The notes below the pieces were generated by a model. The model searched no databases and had not been told where the DNA came from. It was given only the letters and a program-made list of their open reading frames with translations. The translations under genes were made by a program, and so were the position numbers. Of a stretch of DNA of 64,000 nt, positions 43,730 to 62,600 are shown one piece after another (position 1 is the first letter of the stretch; every line of letters begins with the position of its first letter). This DNA is from Asterochloris sp. CNOR1 (lineage: Eukaryota > Chlorophyta > Trebouxiophyceae > Trebouxiales > Trebouxiaceae). The DNA is taken from contig OZ017758.1 in the NCBI GenBank assembly GCA_963969365.1, forward strand, positions 124,001-188,000. Reading direction: 5' to 3'.

Positions 43730-46700
43730 ATGGCTCCACTGACCACCCTGGCTGACGTACTGAGAAGTAACGGCCAGGGTCCAGCAGTTATCTGTGCAGG
43801 AAATGGGCCTCGCCTTACTCGGTCTCAACTTGAAAATGAGATCAAGTTAGTTGCCAACCTGCTTCGAAACAGCGGCATCAAGCCAGGGGACGCCGTTAGC
43901 ATCGCTGATGCCAACACGGTGTGTGCTTGTCAGGCTATCAGCATGCAATGCTCATGCATGTGGTGACAATGATGCCCCTGCCATGTTCAGGTGGACTTCA
44001 TTATTGGCTTCCTGGGCGTGACATATGCACGCGCCGTGGCCGCGCCCCTTAACCCCAACTACCGCCCGGTATGTCTGCTGTTGTCAATGTTGTTGCTAAC
44101 GCCGTCCCTCAGGGCTGAGCTTTCAGGGGCTGACGCAGGCCAGCAGCTTCAGGCTCTTTGCAAACATGTGCAGGCTCTGCAGATGGCACAAGCCAGCATG
44201 AAGTGGTCTGCAGGCTTTGTCAGCCGCTGTCACTGCGGCGTGGGGCCAACGGAGGTCGAGGTCACACTTGACAACCTTTGCTGACGGGGCCTCCAATGTG
44301 CAGGATGAATTCAAGTTCTACATGGAGGATGCAAAGTCGAAGCTGCTCCTGGTGCCAACCTCTGGCAATCAGAATGCAGAGCAGGCTGCAAAGGAGCTTG
44401 GGGTGCCAGTGGCAGTCTTGGCTTTCAAGCAATCTGGAGGTGCGCTGGGCTGCATGGCTACGGGCAGGGACTTCTCCGTTGCTGGCAGCCATGCCCCAAG
44501 ACTAAAGCTCTACGCGAACATTGATGTTGCCCTTCTGCCTTGAGGGTCCTCATGCTTTGTAATCAACAACAGAGGTCGCAAGACACATGCTGTCAGGTCT
44601 GCATCAGGCACAGTGCGGCTTCAATGCTGTGGTTGGCTACCTTTGTATGCAACTCGAACAAGACCTACATCAGGCCAACAGGGCACTAGCATCTCCCCAT
44701 TGCTTCGCTTGTTGGCCGCTCCAGGTTGCTTGTTGCTGGATGCACCCATGGGAAGAGAGTGCAATGCACGGGTATAAGGGGTTGCTAAAAGCTCAAGCTT
44801 TGTACTGGCTGTGTCAGAAGGACAGTGGACTGCCCCGCTGTGTGGGTTTAGATGTGATTCACAACCTTAGTTCCAACCCTCCTGCTTAGGATGCTGCCCA
44901 CCAGGACTGCTGTGCTCAGCCGGCAGCAGATATGCAGCAGGGCCAGGTCCGCCAAGCTGTCGTGCTGCCTGGCTGCAGTGGAGATCAGGCCCAAGACACA
45001 GGGTCTGCAGCTGAAGCAGGGCTCCCCGCAGCTGGTGGACGCCCCTCAGAAGGACGATGTGGCGCTGTTTCTGCACACCAGCGGGACCACAAGCCGCCCC
45101 AAGGTACATGTGCTCAAAAACAGGCTTACAGTGCATGGAGATGGTCTGGTATGTTGTGCCGGCAGCAACGAGGGCTGTCAAAGACACTACTGCTCTGTCA
45201 AGCATTCTCCTACAGCACAAGTTGGCTCAGGTGACTGATCTGATTCCCGCGTGCAGCATGACAGGAGGTTGTCCCAATGTCAGCGGCAGCAGGATGCCAG
45301 CTGCACCCTGCAAAGCGCATCACATACATGCCAGAGATAAAGTAACTTGGCACAGCCTTCAGCACTGCCCCACCCTGGCACAAACGGAGTTGCAGAGCAT
45401 GACCGCGAGGATGGGTGCGGGCTTAGCCATAGGGTTGTCTCCTGTGAGGGCAGCCGACTTCTCAGCGCTTCAGCTGACTGCTGTCTGTTACCCCAGGGAT
45501 GTCAAGAAGCTGGTTGGCGGTCTGCTTTCAGAAAAAGCTGCATTCAGGCTGTCACGTTGGCGCTTCAGTTGACTGCCAACTGCACCATGTGTCTGCAGGG
45601 TGTGCCACTGAACCAGGGCAACCTGGCAGCCAGCCTGGGCAACATCATTGCCACCTACGAGCTGACACCCAAGGACAAGTCCCTGGTGGTCATGCCTCTG
45701 TTCCACGTGCACGGCCTCATGGCAGGTAAGGTTCAACCTGAATTGCGCTGCATTGCTCTGTACTCACCCAAGCTGCCCTTCGTGAGTGGCAGGGGCCTGC
45801 TGGTCCAGCCCCTGTGTAGAGTCCACCACTGCAAGCCAGGTGGGGCTGCCAACTGCACTGGCTGCGCTGCAATGTACTGCACTCAGCTAACCAACTTCAT
45901 AGGCTGCTGGTCATGGTTCCTTGATTGGCAGATGCTGCCTCCGGCCAGTTTGAAGTGACCTGTAGCTACAGCTGCTGGCTGCAGAGCCTGCACATCAATG
46001 GCACTGTCTGGCTTCACTTCAACCACCTTGCACCAGCACGTAGTTGCAAGTAGCATGCTTTGCAGGAGGCATGCCGGCTGGACACCCTTGCTGCAGCTCT
46101 GCACAGCTGTGGGCAGTGACTGGGGTGGTGGCACTAAAGAGTGCTCAGCTGAGCAACGTTGACAACTGTGCAGCAGAGCCTGAAGAGGGTTCAGTGTTCT
46201 GCTGCAGGTCTGCTGGCCCCGCTGGCAGCTGGGGGCACAGTCATCATCCCAGCAGGGGGCAAGTTCTCTGCTGGAACCTTCTGGAGGGATGCCACTGAGC
46301 ATGGAGCGACCTATTACACTGCAGTGCCCACCATGCACCAGGTGAGCGGTGGCCTGTGTCAGGTAGAGCCCTGCACCTTGATTGGACCTGGTAATGGACT
46401 GCACAGCATGTTGTGCACCAGAGATGCAGCAGCTGAGACAGCTGGGGACCTACACGCAATGTGTGCCCCACAAGACTATGTAGCTGCCTCAGCCTTTCAG
46501 GCAGTTGTGTCAAAGGTGGCAGTTGTGTCGCAAGAACAGCTGGCAGGACGCTGTGCTGCCATAGCAGACAGGCTGTTCCAGGCAGCTTTCACATGTTGTG
46601 TGTTGAGCACTGTTCTGTAGCATCTATCCTGAGCTGTAAAGCAACGGCCGTGTCCCTGTCCTATTGCAGTAGATGTTCACGCACTTGCAGTCAATTCCTT

Positions 46701-49700
46701 TCATGACCGACCTGATGCTGCCCTTGCAGCCTTGACCTCAATGGCCACTGTTCAGTGCTGATGATGATCTTGTCTTGATCTGGCAGTCAGCCTCCTGCCC
46801 ACATCTGTCTTTCAGGTGCTGCTGTCACGAGCAGCCAAGGACTACCCCAAGGACAATCCCCCTCCCCTGCGCTTCATCCGCAGCTGCAGCAGCAGCCTGG
46901 CGGCACCCACGCTGCACAAGCTGGAGGCAGCCTTCAAGGTCCCCGTGCTGGAGGTGAGCTGAGTTCACCGCCTGGCTGAGCATGCAATTTTGGTTGACTC
47001 CAATGCCTGGCTGGGCATGCTGTTTGGCTAACATCAGCGCGTGGCTGGGCGTGCTGTTTGGCTGAGTTCAGTGCCTGACTGGGCCTGGTGTTTGGCTGAG
47101 CAGGGTGGGGGGAGACTGGCAGTCATGTGCTCAGATTGCTGTCAAACGCTGATGCTGTGTGCCAGGCAGAGAGGTGTGCACTCTGCTTGCAGCTCCCGAC
47201 CTGCCAGCTGCCTTGCGGCCTTAGAGGGACGTCCAAGGTCTCCCTGCCTGTCTGCTGTTACAAAGTAATACTTTTCTTATTGCAAATCACGATGATTCCA
47301 ACTAACCTCAGCCCACCCTGCATGATGGGCTGCCATGTCCAGACAAGCCCCTGCAGCACAGGCCCTGGCTGCAAAATACAACTGTGAGTGCGCAGGGCCT
47401 GTGCACCTGCAGGCGTACGCTATGACAGAGGCGTCCCACCAGATGACCTCAAACCCGCTGCCCAAGCATGGCCCCCACAAGCCAGGCACCGTCGGGCGGG
47501 CGCAGGGCTCTGTGCAGGCAAGCAGCCGCTGACTTAAGGGCCTACAGCTGCATGCACGCGTCTCTTTTGGTGACCCTCTTGTGGTGCAAGATACATGCAT
47601 GACAGCCAGGCAAGGGATAGGCATCACCGTCGCTTTCCGGCTGCTAACAAAAATCAAACAGTGTCAACCTCATTGGTGCAGCCGTCGGCAGGGCACCTGC
47701 ATCCCCTGCAGCTACAGTCCGTCAGCCTAAAGCCAGGCCTTGAGGGTAATCTGATCCCTAAATCTTTAATGCAGCCTGCAGGGTGCCATGCTGCAGGGCT
47801 GGCTGTTGACCACAACAGCCATCCAGGGTTACCCTAATGTTGTTAGCAGCAATCTGTGACCTACACCCTCATCAGTGCAAGTCGCCATGCTGACGCTTGC
47901 TGCCTGCAAGCAGCAAGCAGTGAGCGCCACCTGTGCCCCTTCAGGTGGCCGTTTTGGACCAGCAGAACCACAAGCTGCCCACTGGCAAGATCGGCGAGGT
48001 CTGCATCAATGGCCCGAATGTGACCAAGGGGTACCTCAACCGTCCAGAGGCCAACCAGGAGGCTTTTGCAGGTGCATTTGCGCACCGCATCGCTGCGCCT
48101 CTGCTCCTTGTTGCTGCATGGCTGCAACATCAAGTGCTCAATGGATGCAACCGCCGTCTGAGTGTGCAAGGGTGCCACCACTCCCTAAAGGCGTGTGTCA
48201 GTGTGCGCAGAGGCCTTTTCAGGTGCCAACTAGTGCTGGGATTCCTCAACAGCCTGCCGACAGTCTGGCCTGAGCGATATGCTGATGAAGAGCAGGCAGC
48301 CCTGCATGACATACACCTGACCTTGCTGCACTTGCTGCAGGAATTTTGGGTGTAGCTCCTTGCACCCATGCCGTGCTGGTGTCACAGCTGTGTTGGGCTG
48401 CCTATGTGTCCCACATGCTGGTGCGCTGTGTGGAGCACTGCGCTCTGCTCCTGTCCACAGTTTGTCAGAGGGGCACCCTGCCTGCACTGCCATCAGCCCT
48501 GCAGATGTGGTTGACTGCACTGCATGTATCCTTCTGAGTTTGTTACCTGGGCCCTCAGGGGACCCTGAAATATAACAAGCTACACCCCTGCAGATAACTA
48601 AATTGCTGCACAGGCAGGGTTTCCAGGTGCACCGCTGGAGCTTCAAAGACCCTCAGACCCTCCCGTTGGTGACGCCGCAGGTGGCAGGTGCCTGTGCAGG
48701 GACCCGCCTGCTCTGAGCAGCATCTTGACTCCTCTACTGTCCCTTGCAGGCGGCTGGTTCCACACGGGGGACCAGGGCTTCCTGGATGAGGAGGGTTTCC
48801 TGACCCTGACAGGGAGGATAAAGGAGCTCATCAACCGGGGCGGGGAGAAGATCTCACCAATTGAGGTGAGGTGCATGTGAATGGGACCACACCTGTGAAG
48901 GAAGGCTCATGGGCAGCAGCTTGCAGCAAGGCAGCACCACAGAGCAAGTTACCCGAGGGCGGCCCCTTGACAGGAGGGCTTGAACGGCACTGCCCTGAGG
49001 CACATCCTGAATGATCGCAACTGCTGCGCTCACAACAGATGGTACTCTGCAGGTGCAGAGTGTTCTGTGCTGTGGCCTGCCTGTAGGTGCTCATTGTGCA
49101 GGGTTGAACTGTAGATCAAGCAAGCATTTCTTCACTTCAAGTGCCTGCAGGGGAACAACATGCTGTTGTCATGTACCAGTCCTGGTACAGGCAGTGTGGC
49201 GTGGTTTCATTCAGCAAGGCAGTCAGGTCTCACAAGGCAGCACGCCGAGCCTCTGACGCAGACAAGCTGCCACACTCCAGACCACATGTCCTACTCTGTA
49301 GACACCACAATGATTCACTGGAGGTTTTGTGTCTGTAATCATGCATGTGCAATGCCTGCAGGTGGGCAGCGTGCTGCTGTCCCGCCCACATGTGGCAGAG
49401 GCACCATGACACCCCGTGAACGACACATTTCATCTACTGGATGGACTGCCTGCAGCCAACATGTAAGCCCATGCCTGCAGGTGGACAGCGTGCTGCTGTC
49501 CCATCCTGACGTGGCAGAGGCAGTAGCCTTTGGCACCCCGGATGAGAAGTACGGCGAGATTGTGGCAGCTGCAGTGGTGCTCAGCAAGCCTACGCAGGAC
49601 ACGGCAGCCTTTGCGCAGGACCTGCGCAAGCACGCAGGCAGCAAGATGTCCAGTTTCAAGGTGGGGCCATTTCGGTGTAGCATCGCTTGCAGGGCTGGCC

Positions 49701-50586
49701 TGTCTGAAGCAGGGAGGCAGTGAATGAGCACTTCCAATCACTGGCAGGCTCTGCCCTGCCCACCTGCAGTCTGGTGGGCTTGTTTGGGAAGTCCCCGTGC
49801 TACAGTGAGTGGATGTATGCATTTTGCTGGAGGGCAGGTCTGCCTTGCAGCACAGTTGGAATAGCTTGCGCAGCATGCAAGATACTGCTGTGTGCAGAGG
49901 CGTGCTTGTTGCATGCACTAGTGCGCATGAACATGCTTGCACGGGTCGGTGTTGCCTGAAAGACAGCAGCAATGGGTGGTGCAGCATGCAAGAGATGGCT
50001 GCACGGGTCTTGCCTGTGCCCCAACAGGGTGCTGTACCAAGGGACAGCTGTGGCAGACTCTGCTTGTGTCATACATGCTTGACGCAAGGCAGGAGGCAGT
50101 GAGGATGCAGGCAGCATGGTGCTGCATGAAGGTGACATTCAAGGATGGAAAATCCGTCTGGCATGCCTGCAGCAGGGATCGAGCAGCGAGTGCAACTGGC
50201 AGCTGGGGCTGCCATCGCCCTCTCGCCCTACAAGGGTGCAAGAGCAACGGCAGTCACTGAGCTGTTGAATACAGTAGACCTTGTGGGTGCTGATGCGTTG
50301 CGCTGATGCCCCCACACTTGGTGCCTGCGCTGCTGCATGTGACACCTGTGCTGCCGCCTTGCCAAGCTGCAAAGGCATTGGTCTGCAGCAGCTTGTCGCT
50401 GCTTTGTCCATGCTTGTTTGGCTCCTGCAGGTGCCTGTCCGCATCTTCGTGACTCAACAGCTGCCCAAGACAGCAACAGGCAAGATCCAGCGCCGCATGA
50501 TGGTGGAGCACTTCATCAAGGGCCCCGGGCAGAAGGAGGAGGCAGGCGCTTCAGGCAAGCCCAGCCAGCCCAGGTCCAAGCTGTGA
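43730..50586 (+). CDS. AAE3: Oxalyl-CoA synthetase (acyl-activating enzyme 3 type), peroxisomal
   Basis: Activates oxalate with ATP and CoA to oxalyl-CoA, first step of CoA-dependent oxalate breakdown. Twelve exons close exactly (1611 nt, 536 residues): 43730-43918, 43991-44068, 44304-44439, 44979-45103, 45599-45725, 46208-46341, 46816-46953, 47413-47517, 47945-48071, 48750-48865, 49481-49660, 50431-50586. Start [11 protein letters not shown] in a good context (GCAGCCATGGC). ANL-superfamily motifs: P-loop [59 protein letters not shown] and the C-terminal [11 protein letters not shown] with the catalytic Lys. Its similarity is to plant AAE3/yeast Pcs60 rather than 4-coumarate ligase ([23 protein letters not shown]). 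It ends in SKL, a canonical PTS1. The intron after 47517 starts with GC (CAG|GCAAGC). A further GC donor inside the last exon at 50555 could bypass the stop and fuse it to the next gene. Confidence 0.95.
46958..47094 (+). repeat. 34-bp tandem repeat starting at a donor
   Basis: Four copies of a 34-35 bp unit (GCTGAGTTCAxxGCCTGGCT, GGGCxTGCTGTTTG) begin four nucleotides inside the intron after exon 46816-46953 at 46958, 46993, 47027 and 47061. It has expanded directly from the 5' splice site. Confidence 0.8.
49053..49520 (+). repeat. Serial copies of an oxalyl-CoA synthetase exon start with acceptor
   Basis: The real exon starts at 49481 (GCCTGCAG|GTGGACAGCGTGCTG). The same acceptor and first ~45 coding nt occur at 49362 (GCCTGCAG|GTGGGCAGCGTGCTG, running on to GTGGCAGAGGCA), and more diverged at 49151 (TGCCTGCAG|GGGAACAACATGC) and 49053 (CTCTGCAG|GTGCAGAGTGTTC). 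Splicing into the 49362 copy would hit TGA after 15 codons, so use of the decoy would be non-productive. Confidence 0.85.
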
Positions 50587-50934
50587 CATGACGACCCCTA
50601 ATAGGCAGCCAGAGACATGCCCCCTCGTGTTGTTTTTCCTGAGACTTCATCACTCCTGAGGCTCAGCATGCCACATGTGCGTCTGCCAATCTGCAGTCTG
50701 CAAGCTTCTGCTGCTCTTGAAGCGCCATTGTTGACCATGAGAGACATTGAACCACCCCTTTATCACTGTTTACTGAAGAGTTTGCAGGATGTAACACATA
50801 CTGTTTCTTGCTTTCACACAGAGAGCTTCCAATTGTGTAGCTTGCTGAGGGCCTATCACATCTTTGCCTCGCTATGCAATTTGCTGTGCACTGTCTGGGG
50901 GCCTGCCTCACACTGCGCTTGTGCTGTGCTTCAG
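50555..50934 (+). other. Candidate GC-AG intron joining the two oxalate genes in frame
   Basis: Donor TCAG|GCAAGC inside the last oxalyl-CoA synthetase exon (124 nt, i.e. one base past a codon) and acceptor TGTGCTTCAG|GCAGCAGC before the first decarboxylase exon (which needs one preceding base). Joining them gives ...[18 protein letters not shown]..., removing the stop and SKL. A TGTAA sequence at 50790-50794 inside the interval could be the algal poly(A) signal of an unspliced, short form. GC donors with GCAAGC are used elsewhere in the window. Confidence 0.5.
50790..50794 (+). promoter_or_regulatory. Possible TGTAA polyadenylation signal
   Basis: TGTAA is the common green-algal poly(A) signal. 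This copy lies about 200 nt after the oxalyl-CoA synthetase stop and before the decarboxylase exon, where a separate 3' end would be expected. A pentamer is weak evidence alone. Confidence 0.3.
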
Positions 50935-53900
50935 GCAGCAGCAGCAGCTCTGGCAAGCCCCACAGCAAGCAGGAAGAGTCAAAGCAGGCCAGCGATGCTG
51001 GCAGCAGCAGCAACAAGCCGGCAGCGCTGCCTGCCAATGGGTACACCCTGGTCTCACAGGCGCTGTACAGGATGGGTATCAGGAACATGTACGGCGTGGT
51101 GGGGATCCCAGTCACAGAGCTGGCCTCTGCAGCGCAGGTGGGTGGATCTGCTAAAAGCTGAGCTGCACTATTGTGGGGCAGCGCTCGGCGTCCCTTCAAA
51201 GCAGCGACTGGACCAAGTGCATGCCTGGAGGCCTCAGTTGCGTCTGAAGGGTCCCCAGCTGTCAGCTGGTCCCACACAAAGGCCTGCTCGCAACAGAGCC
51301 ACAGCTCTCTTCCGACTGCTGGCAGAGAGTGTATCCCTTTGACCTGCAGCTTGGCTGCTCTGCCTTGCGCTTTGACGGGGAGTGCACAGCTCAGCTGCGC
51401 CCGCACAACCTCTGGAATTTAGGGCTGCAACCGTGTGCACTTTAATATTGAACTTGTGCATCCGCAGGGTAGCAGCCACAGGAATGTGCTTCATTGGCTC
51501 CAACAGCGTGCTTGCAGCTGCGCCTGCCCAACGTCTGAAACCGTGACCTGCAACATGTGCATCCAAGTACCTGACCTTGTGCACAATGTGGCTGCAAGCG
51601 GCAGGCAACCACCTCATGAGCTTCAGAAGTGAGCAGGCTGATGCGCCGTCAGCCTGTGGAGCCTAGAGCTGCAGGTTTGTGCTTCCCAATAAGTGAATCT
51701 GCCCTTTCACATGGCTGCAGGCGGCAGGCATCCGCTTCATCGGCTTCAGGAATGAGCAGGCTGCTGGGTACGCGGCAGCAGCCTGCGGCTTCCTGACAGG
51801 CGTCCCCGGCGTGCTGCTGACCGTGTCGGGGCCAGGGGCGGTGCACGGCATTGCCGGGCTGTCCCACGCCTCTGTCAACCGGTGGCCCATGATCATGGTC
51901 TCAGGCTCGGCTGAGCAGGTGTGCCAGGCTGAACCAGCAGCTGCCATTGCAAGGAATCAAATAAGCGAGCTTTTTTGAACCTGACAGTATGCCGAGCTCG
52001 GTTGAGGCAGCATTTCGTTGGACTTTATTGAGCTGCCTGCAGGGGGCAGCGGGATGCCTGACAAGTATGTGCAATGACCCTAAGTTCAGTCGTGCACCAG
52101 GTCTCACCCCTGAGATTCATTGCTGACCGAGCCGGTGCTGCGCAGTGCCGGCTATAGCAGTGTCTACCTGGATAGCCATGTCTCATGCTGTCAGTACATG
52201 GCTGCACCGAGAATGCCAAGCGGACAAAGCTGGTGCTGCGCAGTTTCAACCACAGCAGTGTCCTCCTGGACGCGCTGAGCACCTGCTTCCACTGCTCTGA
52301 TGCATGCGTCCATTGCTGGGAGGACAGTGCTGCCGCTGCGCAGCGCCAATCACTGCTATATTGACCTAGATGACCCTGCCTGGCTGTAGGGTGAGATAGG
52401 CAAGGGGGCCTTCCAGGAGCTGGACCAGGTGGCAGCTGTGCAGCAGTTCTGCAAGTACGCTGGCCGCGCCAACAGCCCGGGGGAGATTGCTGCTGTGGTC
52501 ACAGCAGCTGTCAAGGTGCACCCAGCCAATGATCTGCTTTTACGTCTGATCCCTCGATCAGTTGGTGCTGGCAAGATGAGCTGTGATGCCAGCCCATGCT
52601 TCAGTGCTGAGCTGTTCGGTTGCTGCAGCGCCTGACCAGCAATCACAGTACCTGTGGATGCCTGCCAGAAGCCGCCAAAGCTGCTGTTTGATCAGCCACA
52701 AACAGAGGCTTGTGGCTGGCTTTGACACAGTGCAGACACCCAGCCCACACTGGCTACAGCACTTTGGGGTTGGTCCTCCAACAGAGCTCCCAAGCGCTGC
52801 AGGCCGCCACCTCAATTGTGTGACATCTATGCAAGTACAGCCTGCCCTCTGACAAACAAGCTGTGCTAGAGGCTGCCACGCCAGGATGCCCAGGCACAGC
52901 CTCTGGGTGATGTTGTCCTCCAACTGAGTCCTCTGAGCTGCAGATTGCGGTCTCAAGCTGCCCATGCGCAGCCTGTATGCAATTGCCTCTGACAAAACAT
53001 GCCGTGCGTGCCATCCCGACACAACTTAAATTCGACACTGGCAAAGATTGCGGTGCTGCAGGGCCATCACTTCAGGCTGCCCATGCACCACCTGCCTGAG
53101 ATGCTCTCAACAGATAGTGCTGTGCTGCAGCTCGCTCACCTGAGTCACCCTGCCGCAGTTCAGCTGCCACTGTTGCAGAAAGTGCTGCGCTCAGGACCAC
53201 CACCTCAGGCTGCCCCCCGATGTTGTCATCCGAAAGAGGTCCGTGTGCGCCAGGACGACCACCTCTTGACTGCCTGTGATGCTGTCCTCAACAGGGTTGC
53301 CTGTGTTGCAGGCCGCCACCTCTGGCTGCCCGGGCGCAGCCTATGTGGACCTGCCCTCCAATGTGCTCATGGCGCCAGCTGAGGGCGCCGAGGGCCATGC
53401 CTCCCTGCTTCACGTGCCAGAGCCAGGGGAGGAGCCGGCAGGGGGCCTCTCTGGCAGGCCGCAGGCAGACGGCACTGATGTGGCCAGGGCCATGCAGCTG
53501 CTCAGCAAGGCCAAGCGGTGAGAGCTGTTCACAGGCTGTGGCTGCGCCTCACACCTGCATTGTAATTTACAACTTTTTACAAGGACCCTCAAGCATGTTG
53601 TCGACGAAGCTGGTCGTCCATCGTAGCACACAGCCTGACACTTGATGAATGCCACTTGAATGAGATGTGTCAGCATCAACCTTTGGAGATGCTACACTTT
53701 CTTACTAAACAACACCTTGGACGCTTCTGTCTGTTCCCCGCTTTCCCTGACACCAGGGCAGAATAATGCGTTTGCTTCAACGACGCTGTGCAGGCGCCTG
53801 TTTGAGGCTGGGGGCAGTCTCACTAATGCTGAGCGCTGCCCCCAGTACTTATAGCCTGTACTGTCTCATGGGGCTAGGCACTTGGGCTGCCCCAGTGCCG

Positions 53901-56900
53901 ACTTCCACTCGCCTGGTGTGAAACACACGGCAGCACCTCCCCTCATCCAACTCAGGCCCTCTTGCAACCTTGTCGCTGCACCAGCCCTGCTGCAGCACTC
54001 CCCAACAGGAGCCAGAACACAGCCACACCCCATGTCAGCTCTGTCAGCCCCAAGAGCGCAATCGACTGCCACCTGATCGCGCTACCTTTGCGCCTGCAGG
54101 CCCCTGATTGTCATTGGCAAGGGGGCAGCCCAGTCTCAGGCAGACGCTCAGCTCCGTAAGTTGGTGGAGGCCACAGGCATCCCCTTCCTGGCCACTGCCA
54201 TGGGGAGAGGGGTGGTACCAGACAACCACCCCCAGAATGTAAACGCGGCGCGATCCCTGGCCCTGGCCAAGGCAGACGTGGCCCTCATTGTCGGCGCCAG
54301 GTAGGCTGCTGCATCTGCGAGGGTGCTTTCTGCAATGCTGCCTCTTGAAGTGCCCATCTGAACACAGAGTCACCGGCGCCTGCCATTCTGCCCTCACTGG
54401 TCAAGCAGCCAGTGCTCATTTGTCAAGGCATCATACAGGCGGTGTTCGCAGCTTTGCTGTTTGAATGTATGTTCATGGCTGCTGCGGTGTCAGGCACTCC
54501 TCAAACTTGATCGAGGTTTCAAGTTTGTTTCCCTCATGTGGCAAACGGCTGTGGCGTGCTCTGTGCTTCATGGAGGCTGAGCTAGGCCGCTGAGACCTTA
54601 GCCACCATGCACAGGTGGCTGTGCCCCCTTACATGCAGAGAACCCATGTCAAGCTCAATTTCTTGCACCTTACAACTGCATTGCCTGCAGGCTCAATTGG
54701 CAGCTGCACTTTGGCGAGACCCCCAAATGGAGCAGCGAGGTCAAGTTCCTGCTGGCAGACATCTCCCCTGTGGCCAGAGATAGCGACAGGTCTGAGGTGG
54801 TGCTCACTGGAGATGCAGCTGCAGTGGCACAGCAGCTGACGGCTGAGGCAGCCCATGTGGACCATGGGCAGTATGAGGGCTGGGTCAGGCAGCTGAGGCA
54901 GAAGGTGCGTGACCTGGTTCAGCTGTAGGGATGGCTACCCCTGCTGGCTGGTCCCTGGTTGCGAGGGCTGGGTTAGAGCAGCTGCTGAGGCAGGAGGTGG
55001 GCACCCCTGCAATGCAGGCTGCTGGCATGGTTGCCTGGCATATGTCTGCTGACAGCTTTGGCCAAATTCAAGCCAAATTGCAGGCTAGCATGGGCAAGGT
55101 GCCAAATGCCCTGGACAACCAGACAGTGGTGCGAGCACCGAGGGACTGCCTTGCTGTCATCTGACAGGAGCCTGCTCTGCTCACTCCTTGCTCCTCTGGC
55201 TGTGTTGCAGGTGGCCACCTCCAAGCAGAAGCTGCAGGCCAGCATGGTCAAGGACGCGTACCCCCTGGACTACCAGACGGTGATGCGGGTGCTAAGGGAC
55301 GCCCTGGCGGTTGTCAAACCGGAGCCTGTTGTGGTGTCAGAGGGAGCCAACACCATGGACAACGCCAGGTGAGCTCCGCCGTGTATCTTGTGCAGGCTAA
55401 CCCTAGCCCCTCACCCCTAGGCTGGACATTGTTGCCATGCTGCATGTGAGCAGCTGTGGGGCGGGTCCCTGGAATTTCACAGCCCCATGGAATTTGCTGC
55501 CGCCAGGTGTGACTGGACCCCTGTGATAACGCAGCTGCTTGGCAGGACACAAGATGACGGTTGCAGCTTGCTGTGCTTCTGCCGTGCTGTGCTCCAGGCT
55601 GCTGAGCCTCACCTCCTCACTCAGGCGTAGGCCATCAAGCTGCAGTGTCACCAATTGTTTTGCTGCTGCAGGACCCTATTGACCACATTGGGTGGCCGAG
55701 GGCTTGCTTTGCCATTGCCAGAGACTCCTGCCAGATCCCAAGAGTGATTTACGGGAGGTTGTTGTGTCTCCTCTGTTGCCTCAGCCGCCGGCAGACCATT
55801 CTGGGCTCTGGGGCATAGGGCAAATGCCGGAAGCAATCACCAGGAGTGTCACCTGCAGGAAGCTTCAGTGAATGGAATGACAGTAACATATTACGCGTGG
55901 CCTGCAGGGTGATGCTAGAGCCGGTGACCGAGGGGCGCCTGCGCCTGGACGCTGGCACCTGGGGAACCATGGGGGTGGGCCTAGGGTACGCCATCGCAGC
56001 CGCCACAGCCACAGACCGACTGGTGGTGGCTGTGGAGGGGGACAGCGCCTTTGGCTTCTCAGGGATGGAGTGCGAGACTATTGCCAGGTGAGGCTGGACA
56101 CTGAACAGTGAACAAGAACAAGGACTTGGATGCAGCAGGCCTTGCAGGGTGCAGCCATACTAGCCTGACAGGTGGTAGCATGGCAAGCTGAGTGACTGTA
56201 AATTGTTGACTGCGGTGTGCCAGCACCTCTCACAGGCAGATTCTAGGTCTGCATAGCTGGGGCTCCAGCTTTGCTGCATTCCTCTGTGCGGTGAACAGCT
56301 TAGGGCTCGGTGGTGCTTGACTGCACGAGGAAGGCGGCAGCATGAGGGGGCTGGCTGCCTCCTGAGACCATGCAGACTGCTGTGGGCTGCAGCAGATGTG
56401 GGCCTGTTCCTGGCCGCCTGCCTGGGTTTCAAGCAGCAGTTTGGGAGCTGCAAGAGAGCCAAGCACAGGTGGTAGCTGCCAAGCAGCAGTTCAAGCACTG
56501 TCAGAGGGAGGAGCGCAGGGTGTTGCTGTCAGGACACTCCACTCAAAAGACCTCTGTGGCTCCGTATGCTGCTGTCATCTTCCATGCTAGGCAGTGCCCT
56601 TGCTGCACAGGGTTTGACAGTCTTCAGTGGCCCTACAGAGGCTCTCGCAATGCAACAGCACCTGTCTTGGGCAAGCCACACGGCGCAGCCAAAGCCCTTC
56701 CAATACTCCTTGCAGGTACCGCCTCCCAATTGTAGTCGTTGTGATCAACAACAACGGCATCTATGGTGGCGACCGGCGCCCTCAGCTGCTACAGGAGGCT
56801 GCCCAGAAGGGGGCAGAGCAGGGAGGGTTCAAGCAGGACCCTATTCCCACAGAATTTGTGCGGGACGCCAAGTGAGCCTGCTTGGGCTGCCACGGCCTGC

Positions 56901-57628
56901 TTGCATCAGGACCATGGCAACATCTCAGCACCATGGTGTCCAGTACTGGTGCTGCAGCTTCGCACCAATCTGCTCAGCCAATCTTGCCATGCCACCACTG
57001 CCTTGCGCTGACAGGCTTGTGTTAGGCAACATCTCAGCACCGTATCACCTACTTTGCGACGTTTCTCCAAGCACAATCTGACCTTGCACCCTCTTAGCAC
57101 CCTTGCAGCACCTGCACAGCACCTTGGCTTACTGGCACAGCACAGTCTCAGCACCTTCTCCTGCAAAAATGTTCCTGCCTGGTGCTGGTGGCTGCTGCTG
57201 CGTTTGTGATAATGTCGCCAGCAATAGCAAGTCCCAGCCGAATTCTGCAAAAGCTCTGCACTAGGCACCGGCCCTGCCCTGACAGTCTACCTGAGAACCA
57301 GTCTGGCATGTAGCAGTAAGCCAGGCAGCTGGACTCAACCAGCTGGGCAGTCACAGGGTGCCCTGTTGCCAGCCCCAGGGCTGCACTGCTCTGCTAGCTT
57401 GAGGGCCCGTCTCAAACCTCACGGCTCCCTTTGTGCAGGTATGAAATGATCATGGAGGCTTTTGGCGGCAACGCCTATGGAGTGGTAAACGCTGGGCAGC
57501 TGGCTTCAGCCTGCAGGGCAGCCTTCCACGGCAGGCAGCCGACCCTGATCAACGTCAACATCGACCCCTTTGCAGGGGTGGAGAGCGGCAATGTGCACGC
57601 ATTCAATGCGCCCAAGTCCAAAATGTAG
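50874..57628 (+). CDS. OXC: Oxalyl-CoA decarboxylase (ThDP-dependent, HACL/OXC family), peroxisomal
   Basis: Converts oxalyl-CoA to formyl-CoA and CO2 with thiamine diphosphate. Exons: 50935-51137 (or from ATG 50874), 51721-51918, 52390-52515, 53312-53517, 54100-54300, 54691-54904, 55211-55368, 55908-56087, 56716-56871, 57439-57628; all junctions close. Domains: PYR domain with the cofactor-activating Glu in [13 protein letters not shown] and [11 protein letters not shown]; central domain [16 protein letters not shown] domain with [19 protein letters not shown] and INNNGIYGG (the GDx...NN ThDP/Mg motif). Closest to plant OXC ([57 protein letters not shown]). It ends SKM, a plant-type PTS1 variant. 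The N-terminus before ANGYTLV is a ~40-residue Ser/Gly/Lys-rich linker. The only upstream ATG (50874, [12 protein letters not shown]) gives an odd hydrophobic start in poor context, so a standalone start is doubtful. Confidence 0.94.
51468..51765 (+). repeat. Copies of decarboxylase exon 2 start
   Basis: The true exon begins at 51721 (GGCTGCAG|GCGGCAGGCATCCGC, then TTCATCGGCTTCAGGAATGA). Decayed copies lie at about 51598 (GGCTGCAAGCGGCAGGCAAC, then TCATGAGCTTCAGAAGTGAG) and 51468 (GGTAGCAGCCACAGGAATGT, then GCTTCATTGGCTCCAACAG). Spacing is 123-130 nt. Confidence 0.85.
52803..53340 (+). repeat. Array of copies of decarboxylase exon 4 start
   Basis: The real exon starts at 53312 (TTGCAG|GCCGCCACCTCTGGC, then TGCCCGGGCGCAGCC). 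Diverged copies of this edge start near 52803 (CTGCAG|GCCGCCACCTC), 52872, 52944, 53062 (CTGCAG|GGCCATCACTTCAGG), 53195 (CTCAG|GACCACCACCTCAGG) and about 53252. The intron before exon 4 is made largely of them. Confidence 0.8.
54963..55161 (+). repeat. Copies of both exon edges inside one decarboxylase intron
   Basis: 54963-54996 repeats the end of exon 54691-54904 (GAGGGCTGGGT...GAGGCAG|GTG) 88 nt downstream of the original. 55069-55160 repeats the first ~90 nt of exon 55211-55368 (peptide [19 protein letters not shown] against [19 protein letters not shown]) 153 nt upstream of it. The copy ends in a stop and is decayed. Confidence 0.88.
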
Positions 57629-59676: not shown

Positions 59677-62600
59677 ATGACCCCTCTGCTGGCCATGTCT
59701 CTCTCACGAGTCAGTGTGGGACGAGCCCTGCTTGCTCGCCCCAACTCACATCAGCAGCTGTTCCGCAACACACTGAATGGGATTGATAGAGCTGGGCTTC
59801 AGCACAGAGTGCAATCAGCAAGAACAGCAGTCTCACAGGCTGCTGCTGTAGCAGAGGCTGCCCCTCAGGACAGTACAGGCTCCAGTACACTCCCAGTGGT
59901 CATTGAAACTAGGGGCGTTCCTGTGAGTTTTGGGGGCTTGTTCCGTGCTTGCCTGTTGCAGCTGAGCTTCTGAGGAGGTCTGCACAGCGGTGTTTCTGAG
60001 GAGGCCTGCACTGCTGTGCAGATCCTGCTCTATGCCAAACAGGAGGAGGTGGAGGTTGAAGCCCTGGCTCAGCTGAGAAAGCTGGCTGAGAGTCCCCTCC
60101 CAGTGAGCACAGCAAGCTATTGACTTGGCTGCCTGCGTGCACACCCAAGCCATGCCTACTCATCAGAGGCATGGCTGGAGTAGGAAGAAGGAGAAGGAGT
60201 TGCATTCAAGCCGTGCTGCCAAGTGCCTGCTGCAAAGCGGCTGGCTGAATTCAAAAAACAATTGTTGTTTTTGGTGCAGGTCGGCTATGTCTCAGCCATG
60301 CCTGATGTGCATCTTGGCAAAGGCGTCACGGTGAGCAGCTGCCTCCTTGTCGAGGTGCCCAATCTGCTGAATCCAGAGTTTCAGGCTTTTCGAATTGACA
60401 CACAGGCTCTCCCCAGGTGGAGAGCAGCAGCGTTCAGCTGCCTGCCGTTACATGTCTGCTAGTACATGCCTGACTTCAGCACATGGAGCAGTGGTGCCTA
60501 GCTGCGCAGTGCGTATTGCCTGCAGATTGGCACCGTCTTTGCCTCCGAGTCCTATGTCTGCCCAAACGCTGTTGGAGTCGACATAGGTGAGCCCGGTCTG
60601 CCTGAAAGGCCTGCTGCCAATGTGCCCTGCTGCACTCTGATGCTGTGTTGCGGCCGTCTCCTGTGCTGCAATGCCCCTTTCTGCCCGAGGGGCCTGCTGC
60701 AGATGTGCCCTACTGCACTCTCATGCTGTGGTACGGCCGTCTCCTGGGCTGCACTGAGCTGCACACTGCCAGGCCTTGCCGCAGGCTGGCCATGCGGTAG
60801 TGCTTCTCCCGTCGTTGCTGCAGCTTGACCTTGCCTCACACCTCCACGGCCATCATGCGCGCCGTGCTGGCGCGGGCATGCCTTGCTGTGCAGCAGAACA
60901 TGGTGTCGTCAAAATGTGGCTGTGCAGGCAACGACGTGCCTGGTTTGCCCTGGATGAGCTACAATAATAGCGGCGATATCCCACTGCTGGGCAGCACTTG
61001 CCGGGCCCCATGCCTGGGCTCTAGGCTGGACTCTTGCTTCCTTCTGCTATCTGTGACCTGACTGTAGTGGCAATGGATGCTGCTCTCTGATCTGCTCTGA
61101 AAGGTGCAGGCTGCGGCCAGAGACCGGCCACATATTCTGAGGCAGCCATCCCATGCTGTGCAATGAGTATCTTGTCTCACTCTGAAGAGTGCAGGCATTC
61201 TTGAGAGAGGACGAGGTGCAAAGCTCCTGTACCCACCAGTTCAGCTGCAGCAGGTGCCTGGAGCCACCCATGGAGCCAGCGGATTGCATTGCCGATGGTG
61301 CTGGTGTCCCCTTCGTGCTGCAGGCTGCGGCACATGTGCAGTCTTGATCACGATGCCACATGCCGGCCAACACAGGCTACCTTGTGCTGCTCATTGAGCC
61401 AGAAGCCCAGATCTGCCAGGCAGGCAGAGGCCTGAAGATAAGGCCTGACAGCGTTCCTCTTGTGGTGCTGCAGGCTGCGGCATGTGCTGCGTGCTGCATG
61501 GGAGAGCCTTAGTCTTCTGCAGCATGTGGCGCGCACCACCAGATGAGCTGCACTGGTCATATACTTGCCCTGCCAATGCTCACAGCGTCCCCTCTCATGG
61601 CGCAGGCTGCGGCATGTGTGCAGTCCCTGTGGATGGGCTCCACAAGGATGACGTGTCCATGGAGCAGCTGCTGAAGCTGCAGAGCCTGATCAAGCGGCGC
61701 ATCCCCACAGGCTTTGAGCAGCACAAGGCAGCCCTGCCCACAGCCCAGCAAGCAATGGAGGAGTGGTCCAATGTCAAGCCTCCCAGCGAGTGAGTCCACT
61801 GAAACGTCTGCTCACAAGGCCGCTGATGGGCTCAAAACAGCCTCATCTTACTAGCTTGCTGTTTTCTGCTCTTGCTGGCTTGCTGTTTTCTGCTCTCGGT
61901 TTTCCAGGTCCACTCTGGGTTCCGCTTGCAGGGGTGGGGGGGTTCCTGCAGCCGCGCTCTTCCGCTCCTGTTCTTGATTGTGATGACATTCAGTCATTGT
62001 GGGCTTGTGCTGCAAACACGCTCTCCAGCGCCCTCTCATGCTGTTGCTCTTCCAGGGCTTGTCACATTGTTCAGCTGATGCTCCTGTGTCACAGCAGCAG
62101 ACTCCTAGTCCTCGACTTGACATCCATCTGCACATCAACATGCAGTATACAGCGGTGCGCTCAGCGTCACTGCCTGCGCCTGCAGGTGGCTGGAGCAGCA
62201 GGTCTTCTCGGGGGCCAACAATGAGAAGGCAGCCAAGCAATTGGGCACCCTGGGTGAGCTGCGCACTTTGTGCAGCAGACAGCCTATGGTACTTTGCTAG
62301 CTAGCCCACAGAGCACAGGCTACTGGCCTGCAGTCACACAGGAGCCCACCTTCCCTGCATCAGCACCTGCTCAGAGCAGCCCTACCTCCTGTCAGCCTGT
62401 TAATGCTCAGCACGACACCACCTCTACAGCTGTGGCCCCACTCGCAGAGGCACAGCACTCTGAGCTTTTCCTGGGTTTGGACATGCACAATGGGGTTGTC
62501 CTTCTGTGCCGGCTGGTCAAATGCAGAATTCCACATTGCCTGCTTGGGCATTTGTCCAGAGCAGCCGGTCAAAGCCTGCGCATGAGACTACGTCAGCTGT

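Follow-up and report, generated by a model that had tools for sequence, protein, structure and literature searches.

Does the oxalate–coenzyme A (CoA) ligase gene of an alga, AAE3, end at its own stop codon, or can splicing carry it on into the decarboxylase gene that follows? The two genes lie in tandem on the plus strand of a 64,000-nucleotide (nt) stretch of contig OZ017758.1, hereafter the window: AAE3 at 43730–50586 (12 exons, 536 residues) and the coding region of OXC, a predicted oxalyl-CoA decarboxylase, at 50935–57628 (10 exons), both modeled from reading frame and homology. An earlier note on this DNA had proposed that a GC-AG intron fuses them into one enzyme. Based on genomic DNA, we find the fusion plausible and better supported than it was there. 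The reading we favor, at somewhat less than an even chance, is that a single transcription unit spans AAE3 and OXC, with a composite terminal exon from which a fusion transcript arises.

The proposed alternative intron (50555–50934, plus strand) is 380 nt long and in phase 1. Its removal takes out the final 32 nt of the AAE3 coding sequence, including SKL and the stop, and joins the two frames into 1136 residues with a single, terminal stop. Translation of this join, together with the strength of the acceptor, confirms the anatomy first described in the earlier note: the GC-AG boundaries, the in-phase join, the 1136 residues and the SKM end. The frame is likewise kept across the remaining 20 exon joins of the gene models, and an in-phase join by itself is a one-in-three event. 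Splice matrices were built from the 20 introns of AAE3 and OXC, placed via homology and frame. With the full matrix, the donor CAG/GCAAGC (50552–50560) scores 7.36, the top value in 50500–50930, and the acceptor, TTCAG ending at 50934, scores 10.01, which beats 12 of the 20 model introns and is the only score of at least 8 within 50587–51060. The candidate intron therefore pairs an AG/GCAAG donor with a strong acceptor. The remark that GCAAG donors occur elsewhere also holds, as AAE3 intron 8 (47518–47944, plus strand, GC-AG) has the same nine-nucleotide donor and is backed by homology on both sides.

How unusual is this combination? Across the 3,443 exonic nt of both genes, no other donor inside an exon reaches 7.0, and two decoys reach 5.44. 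Non-exonic acceptors of at least 10.0 number 12 in 10,436 nt, that is, 11 besides the candidate. By chance, the final 77 nt of the AAE3 coding sequence should hold about 0.045 donors and the 195-nt entry zone of OXC 0.21 acceptors, with phase matching one time in three. Together these give a probability of about 0.003, a figure too favorable to the intron, since genuine GC donors are themselves rare and CAGGCAAG, present at the candidate donor, recurs at 50477. Other routes through the junction were tried and rejected. An in-phase GT-AG alternative at 50574–50938 scores 2.28 at the donor and −2.08 at the acceptor, and read-through of the AAE3 TGA meets a TAA as the fifth codon past it. A search of 50300–51200 for known RNAs or riboswitches returned four matches, all below the gathering threshold (best 22.2 bits versus 56).

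The beginning of OXC also bears on the fusion. We trained a coding model on 1,092 codons of AAE3 and OXC, and the 2,000 coding windows sampled for comparison are these same training data. Ahead of the conserved OXC domain, the only in-frame ATG reached without splicing lies at 50874–50876 (plus strand), in a frame that opens at 50841. Codons 50874–50936 score −0.88 bits per codon, lower than every one of the 2,000 coding windows, which upholds the earlier statement that OXC lacks a convincing start of its own. By the same codon score, 50844–50936 and the gap in all three frames are not coding-like. Downstream, a low-complexity Ser/Gly/Lys linker without an in-frame Met (50937–51035, plus strand) precedes the conserved OXC start NGYTLV and, scored over 50937–51038, exceeds 99.8% of intron windows; homology begins at about residue 33–35 in most top matches. 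The codon score is intron-like through 50936 and coding-like beyond, and in an unsupervised map the top coding segment begins at 50952. Thus, the coding signal sets in just downstream of the strong acceptor, within some 17 nt.

We then enumerated exons running from an ATG to a donor (score at least 1, region 49661–50900) that would join 50934 in phase. Of the 22 obtained, none falls in the gap: each is confined to AAE3 exon 12 or to intron 11, or bridges the two. Because coding signal sets in just past the acceptor and the gap holds no such first exon, OXC likely has an upstream exon, for which AAE3 exon 12 would be the best candidate. The transcript may start at the AAE3 promoter, giving a fusion, or inside AAE3, giving a stand-alone OXC. 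Two further first exons were discarded. A first coding exon ending at the donor at 50677 is out of phase with 50934. A non-coding first exon running to 50676 and joined to 50935 would find its next in-frame ATG at 51072, inside the conserved start and behind out-of-frame ATGs at 50995 and 51037, and is unlikely.

At the same time, the end of AAE3 at 50586 looks real in its own right. The stretch used only when the intron is retained (50554–50586, plus strand; ten codons and a stop) scores in the coding range, and each of its ten codons has G or C in third position. The 11 codons of exon 12 ahead of the donor are coding-like as well. The resulting C-terminus, PRSKL, resembles a type 1 peroxisomal targeting signal (PTS1), and among 259 stops encountered within introns, just one follows a PTS1-like tripeptide. 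A candidate poly(A) signal for an AAE3-only transcript, TGTAAC, sits at 50790–50795 (plus strand), 204 nt downstream of the stop. In chlorophytes UGUAA is most frequent about 17 nt upstream of the cleavage site, and TGTAAC is a frequent form of the signal (PMC1868727). TGTAAC occurs seven times on the plus strand of the window, so one in the gap is a modest signal. The SKL end and the TGTAA signal of the earlier note are therefore both present, but the latter is not decisive: TGTAA occurs 28 times on the plus strand and was not found downstream of OXC within the window.

A composite terminal exon reconciles the apparently real end of AAE3 with the onset of OXC coding signal just past the acceptor. 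AAE3 exon 12 (50431–50586, plus strand), the proposed composite exon, has the parts: an internal donor, an in-frame join downstream, its own stop, and a candidate poly(A) signal inside the intron. In human data, GC-AG introns are associated with alternative polyadenylation and with a choice among 5′ sites (PMC7242645). Spacing points the same way. The two frames are 287–348 nt apart, and OXC is 2,048 nt from the next gene; in Auxenochlorella protothecoides, colinear monocistronic genes have a median separation of 2,518 nt. The medians for bicistronic genes are 40 and 183 nt (PMC11291117). The AAE3–OXC distance is far under the monocistronic median, favoring one transcription unit.

In the mechanism we propose, exon 12 would hold an internal and inherently weak GC 5′ splice site. 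If the donor is skipped, translation would continue for ten more codons to the RSKL stop, cleavage would follow TGTAAC at about 50807, and only the ligase, with its peroxisomal tag, would be made. Use of the donor would instead remove the 380-nt segment carrying the tail, stop and poly(A) signal; the RNA would run into the OXC exons, and a 1136-residue ligase–decarboxylase would bear the tag SKM at its new end. We infer from this scheme that both RNAs exist, that splicing and polyadenylation compete, that both products are targeted to peroxisomes, and that oxalyl-CoA is channeled. A stricter version, in which the decarboxylase would exist only within the fusion and one gene would yield either a peroxisomal ligase or a 1136-residue enzyme converting oxalate to formyl-CoA and CO2, is more doubtful, though still a serious possibility. 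If true, the locus would hold a natural fusion of two CoA-dependent steps of oxalate degradation, switched by splicing versus polyadenylation, and would offer a clean test of a weak GC donor competing with an algal UGUAA signal. Were the alga a trebouxiophyte, lichen-type partners could bring fungal oxalate exposure.

Several observations, at the locus and in comparison with other genomes, weigh against the fusion. Once the real GC intron with the identical donor leaves the matrix, the score of the candidate donor drops to 5.44 and ranks close to last among the 20; an out-of-phase GT at 50677 scores more than this (6.19, full matrix). GC donors make up one of 20 introns at the AAE3/OXC locus and 0.83% in human coding genes (PMC7242645), and with GC donors so rare, one here is little likelier under a fusion than by chance. 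The string CAGGCAAG also occurs unused 75 nt upstream of the candidate donor (50477–50484, plus strand, exon 12), inside the conserved coding motif ATGKIQRR, where the AAE3 model has no splice site, and it is found nine times per strand of the window, including the candidate and intron 8. Base composition is similarly unhelpful. The intron has a G+C fraction of 0.518 against a mean of 0.564 (standard deviation 0.019) for the 20 introns, of which only a 72-nt one is lower, and the 0.506 of the gap is below all 348-nt windows inside those introns (0 of 3,596 overlapping windows). With 0.526 in the 348 nt after OXC and 0.583 in the 300 nt before AAE3, the low value of the gap would suit a 3′ untranslated region (UTR) better than a constitutive intron. 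The linker, too, sits at the low end of the coding range, its score being matched or undercut by just 3.7% of coding windows. Apart from these points, a 10-bp direct repeat, GCTTCAGGCA, stands at 50548–50557 and 50928–50937 (plus strand), a spacing of 380 nt that equals the intron length. Reverse-transcriptase template switching across direct repeats is a known artifact. As the repeat spans the predicted junction, such switching could fake a fusion product.

The comparative evidence comes from bacteria and cuts both ways. Using the OXC alignment in a search of contigs, we examined the oxc loci of the best 80 of at least 574 relatives. An AMP-ligase match lies near oxc in at least 19 of the 80, and in at least 17 it exceeds 300 bits and is AAE3-like; these counts are lower bounds because flanks are short in some loci. 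Among those 17, the ligase is divergent from oxc in 12 and on the same strand in five, three of which abut oxc. In two of the three (L033 and L043) the ligase comes first and oxc begins 14 and 18 nt past its stop, while in L035 the order is reversed. None of these three abutting pairs is fused; they have separate frames or a stop between. Pairing of ligase and oxc is thus recurrent in bacteria, a point in favor of the fusion, although no fused pair was seen; the AAE3-like ligase beside oxc in these three loci is possibly a ligase-based alternative to formyl-CoA transferase. Nor did the literature searched contain a natural AAE3–OXC fusion.

What else could the locus encode? Two ordinary tandem genes and an OXC gene overlapping AAE3 both rank below the fusion. 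In the tandem arrangement, which we consider unlikely, AAE3 would end at 50586 with poly(A) addition near 50807, and OXC would start at ATG 50874 without an intron, from a short promoter in the AAE3 3′ UTR and with a poorly conserved 25-residue N-terminal extension. That ATG is indeed in frame and open into OXC, TGTAAC at 50790 suits an AAE3 3′ end, the GC-poor gap differs from introns, and AAE3 has its own PTS1. Yet the codons that follow the ATG are intron-like, only about 67 nt would separate the ATG from the predicted poly(A) site, and the strong acceptor near the coding onset would go unused. The gap also holds six ATGs versus 3.8 expected, with none of the depletion described for algal 5′ UTRs (PMC11291117). 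An overlapping OXC gene would be driven by a putative promoter within intron 11 or exon 12 of AAE3, and its first exon would join the acceptor at 50934. Such a gene would account for the acceptor and the coding onset without a fusion, and we regard it as slightly less likely again. For example, a start at M50497 or M50500 in exon 12 followed by the same GC-AG splice would give a stand-alone OXC. ATG 50500 has A at −3 and G at +4, and in-phase first exons are available through donor 50555 (ATG 50497/50500) and donors 49838, 49900 and 50132, but the three intron-11 candidates are short, at 5–8 codons.

Two remaining explanations are very improbable. A bicistronic mRNA with OXC as its second open reading frame (ORF), reached by leaky scanning, would agree with the shared strand and the short distance between ORFs, and a preprint calls bicistronic transcripts prevalent in green algae (PMC11291117). 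Leaky scanning fits poorly, however, because the first ORF is long and not depleted of ATGs: it measures 1,611 nt versus a bicistronic median of 291–357 nt, and it contains 25 ATGs versus 21.3 expected, whereas the median ATG ratio ahead of a second ORF is 0.43–0.49 (PMC11291117). The AAE3 start, GCAGCCATGG, moreover has G at both −3 and +4. An assembly or sequence error that lost the first OXC exon, or mis-joined two genes, has a comparably small probability. It would explain why OXC lacks a clean start, but the intact frame across the 20 other exon joins speaks against it, and the segment matched only itself in the genome.

The enzymatic identities behind the proposed fusion come from family membership. 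In a structure-sequence search, AAE3 residues 28–517 match PDB 5ie0 ("Oxalate--CoA ligase") at 560 bits, followed by other solved oxalate-CoA ligases (6qjz, 552; 8aff, 444; 8atd, 319 bits), while the next kind of ligase reaches only 211 bits. AAE3 is thus nearest to solved oxalate-CoA ligases across almost its full chain. Against NCBIfam, the best model was NF004511 (FadD7 family; 504.4 bits, cutoff 650); all 25 models listed score below their cutoffs, and none is an oxalate-CoA ligase model. We assign 43730–50586 to the oxalate-CoA ligases by family, with oxalate activity predicted. AAE3 intron 7 additionally contains a tandem array (46958–47099; period 34, 4.1 copies, 76% matches).

OXC matches 2q27 at 473 bits and 8vzd at 436 bits; on alignment it is 46% identical to the E. 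coli enzyme (2q27, OXC) and 44% to TbHACS (8vzd). It passes the NCBIfam equivalog NF006721 (603.9 bits, cutoff 557), and stays below the cutoffs of the equivalog TIGR03254 (566.6 versus 739.4 bits) and of the 2-hydroxyacyl-CoA lyase model NF058623 (231.7 versus 600 bits). Aligned by eye against AtOXC 120/121, exon 3 carries the plant-type Phe/Gln active-site pair in GAFQELDQ. OXC is accordingly a predicted oxalyl-CoA decarboxylase, for which 2-hydroxyacyl-CoA lyase activity may be an alternative. No second close copy of either gene was found in the 56.4-Mb genome, which held distant matches only (C5 and C1 for AAE3, C14 for OXC). Both proteins have PTS1-like ends (SKL at 50586; PKSKM, ending at 57628), which suggests a peroxisomal oxalate pathway. 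The next plus-strand gene begins at 59677 and, judging by a motif, presumably encodes an RtcB-type RNA ligase.

The predicted switch has relatives among known systems. The secreted/membrane switch of the immunoglobulin mu heavy chain is a case of a composite terminal exon, or intronic polyadenylation. As there, a weak 5′ splice site in the last coding exon of AAE3 would be set against a downstream poly(A) site to give two C-termini; unlike there, the alternative C-terminus would amount to an entire second enzyme, and the site is only predicted to be used. The bacterial loci L033 and L043 share the order of ligase gene followed by oxc and differ in that their frames are separate or stop-split. 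Judged from its title and matched range, PDB entry 3tsy (4CL–resveratrol synthase) similarly joins an ANL ligase to an enzyme using its CoA thioester. We take 3tsy to be an engineered, man-made fusion, from which AAE3–OXC differs as a natural candidate. Weak, regulated GC donors are also described for GC-AG introns of let-2 and ING4, and in ING4 the choice alters a localization signal; those cases are reported as tested, whereas the exchange of SKL for OXC-SKM in AAE3 is predicted (PMC7242645). Plant AtAAE3 and AtOXC are the same two consecutive enzymes, and Phe120/Gln121 of AtOXC match the algal GAFQELDQ. Unlike the algal genes, which are adjacent and both PTS1-like at their ends, the plant proteins are separate and reported as cytosolic (PMC8004701).

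The edges of the candidate intron resemble each other, which the earlier note had taken as a sign of a duplicated junction. The likeness is there: besides GCTTCAGGCA, GGCAAGCCC occurs at 50554 and 50952, no edge run in the 20 model introns exceeds 7, and none of 380 cross-pairings reaches 10. The duplication did not hold up. The best gapped score is 32.4, where the 20 model introns reach up to 29.6, and the wider likeness, reached by 0.3% of random pairs, is reached by 17% of codon-shuffled linkers, so that it is mostly shared composition.

Elsewhere in the two genes, four of 19 testable introns (48866–49480, 51138–51720, 52516–53311 and 54905–55210) contain two to five decayed direct copies of the start of the next exon. 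These extend up to about 70 nt and, in three of the four introns, include the CTGCAG-type acceptor. The best copies lie at 49352–49416, 51589–51659, 52861–52923 and 55059–55124 and score 42–65 against control maxima of 28–32, the weakest listed (30–32) being near chance. They look like tandem duplications of exon edges and would act as decoy acceptors. In intron 54905–55210, sequence near 54933 additionally resembles the end of the exon before it, so this intron may have arisen as a copy, since decayed, of an entire exon-intron-exon junction.

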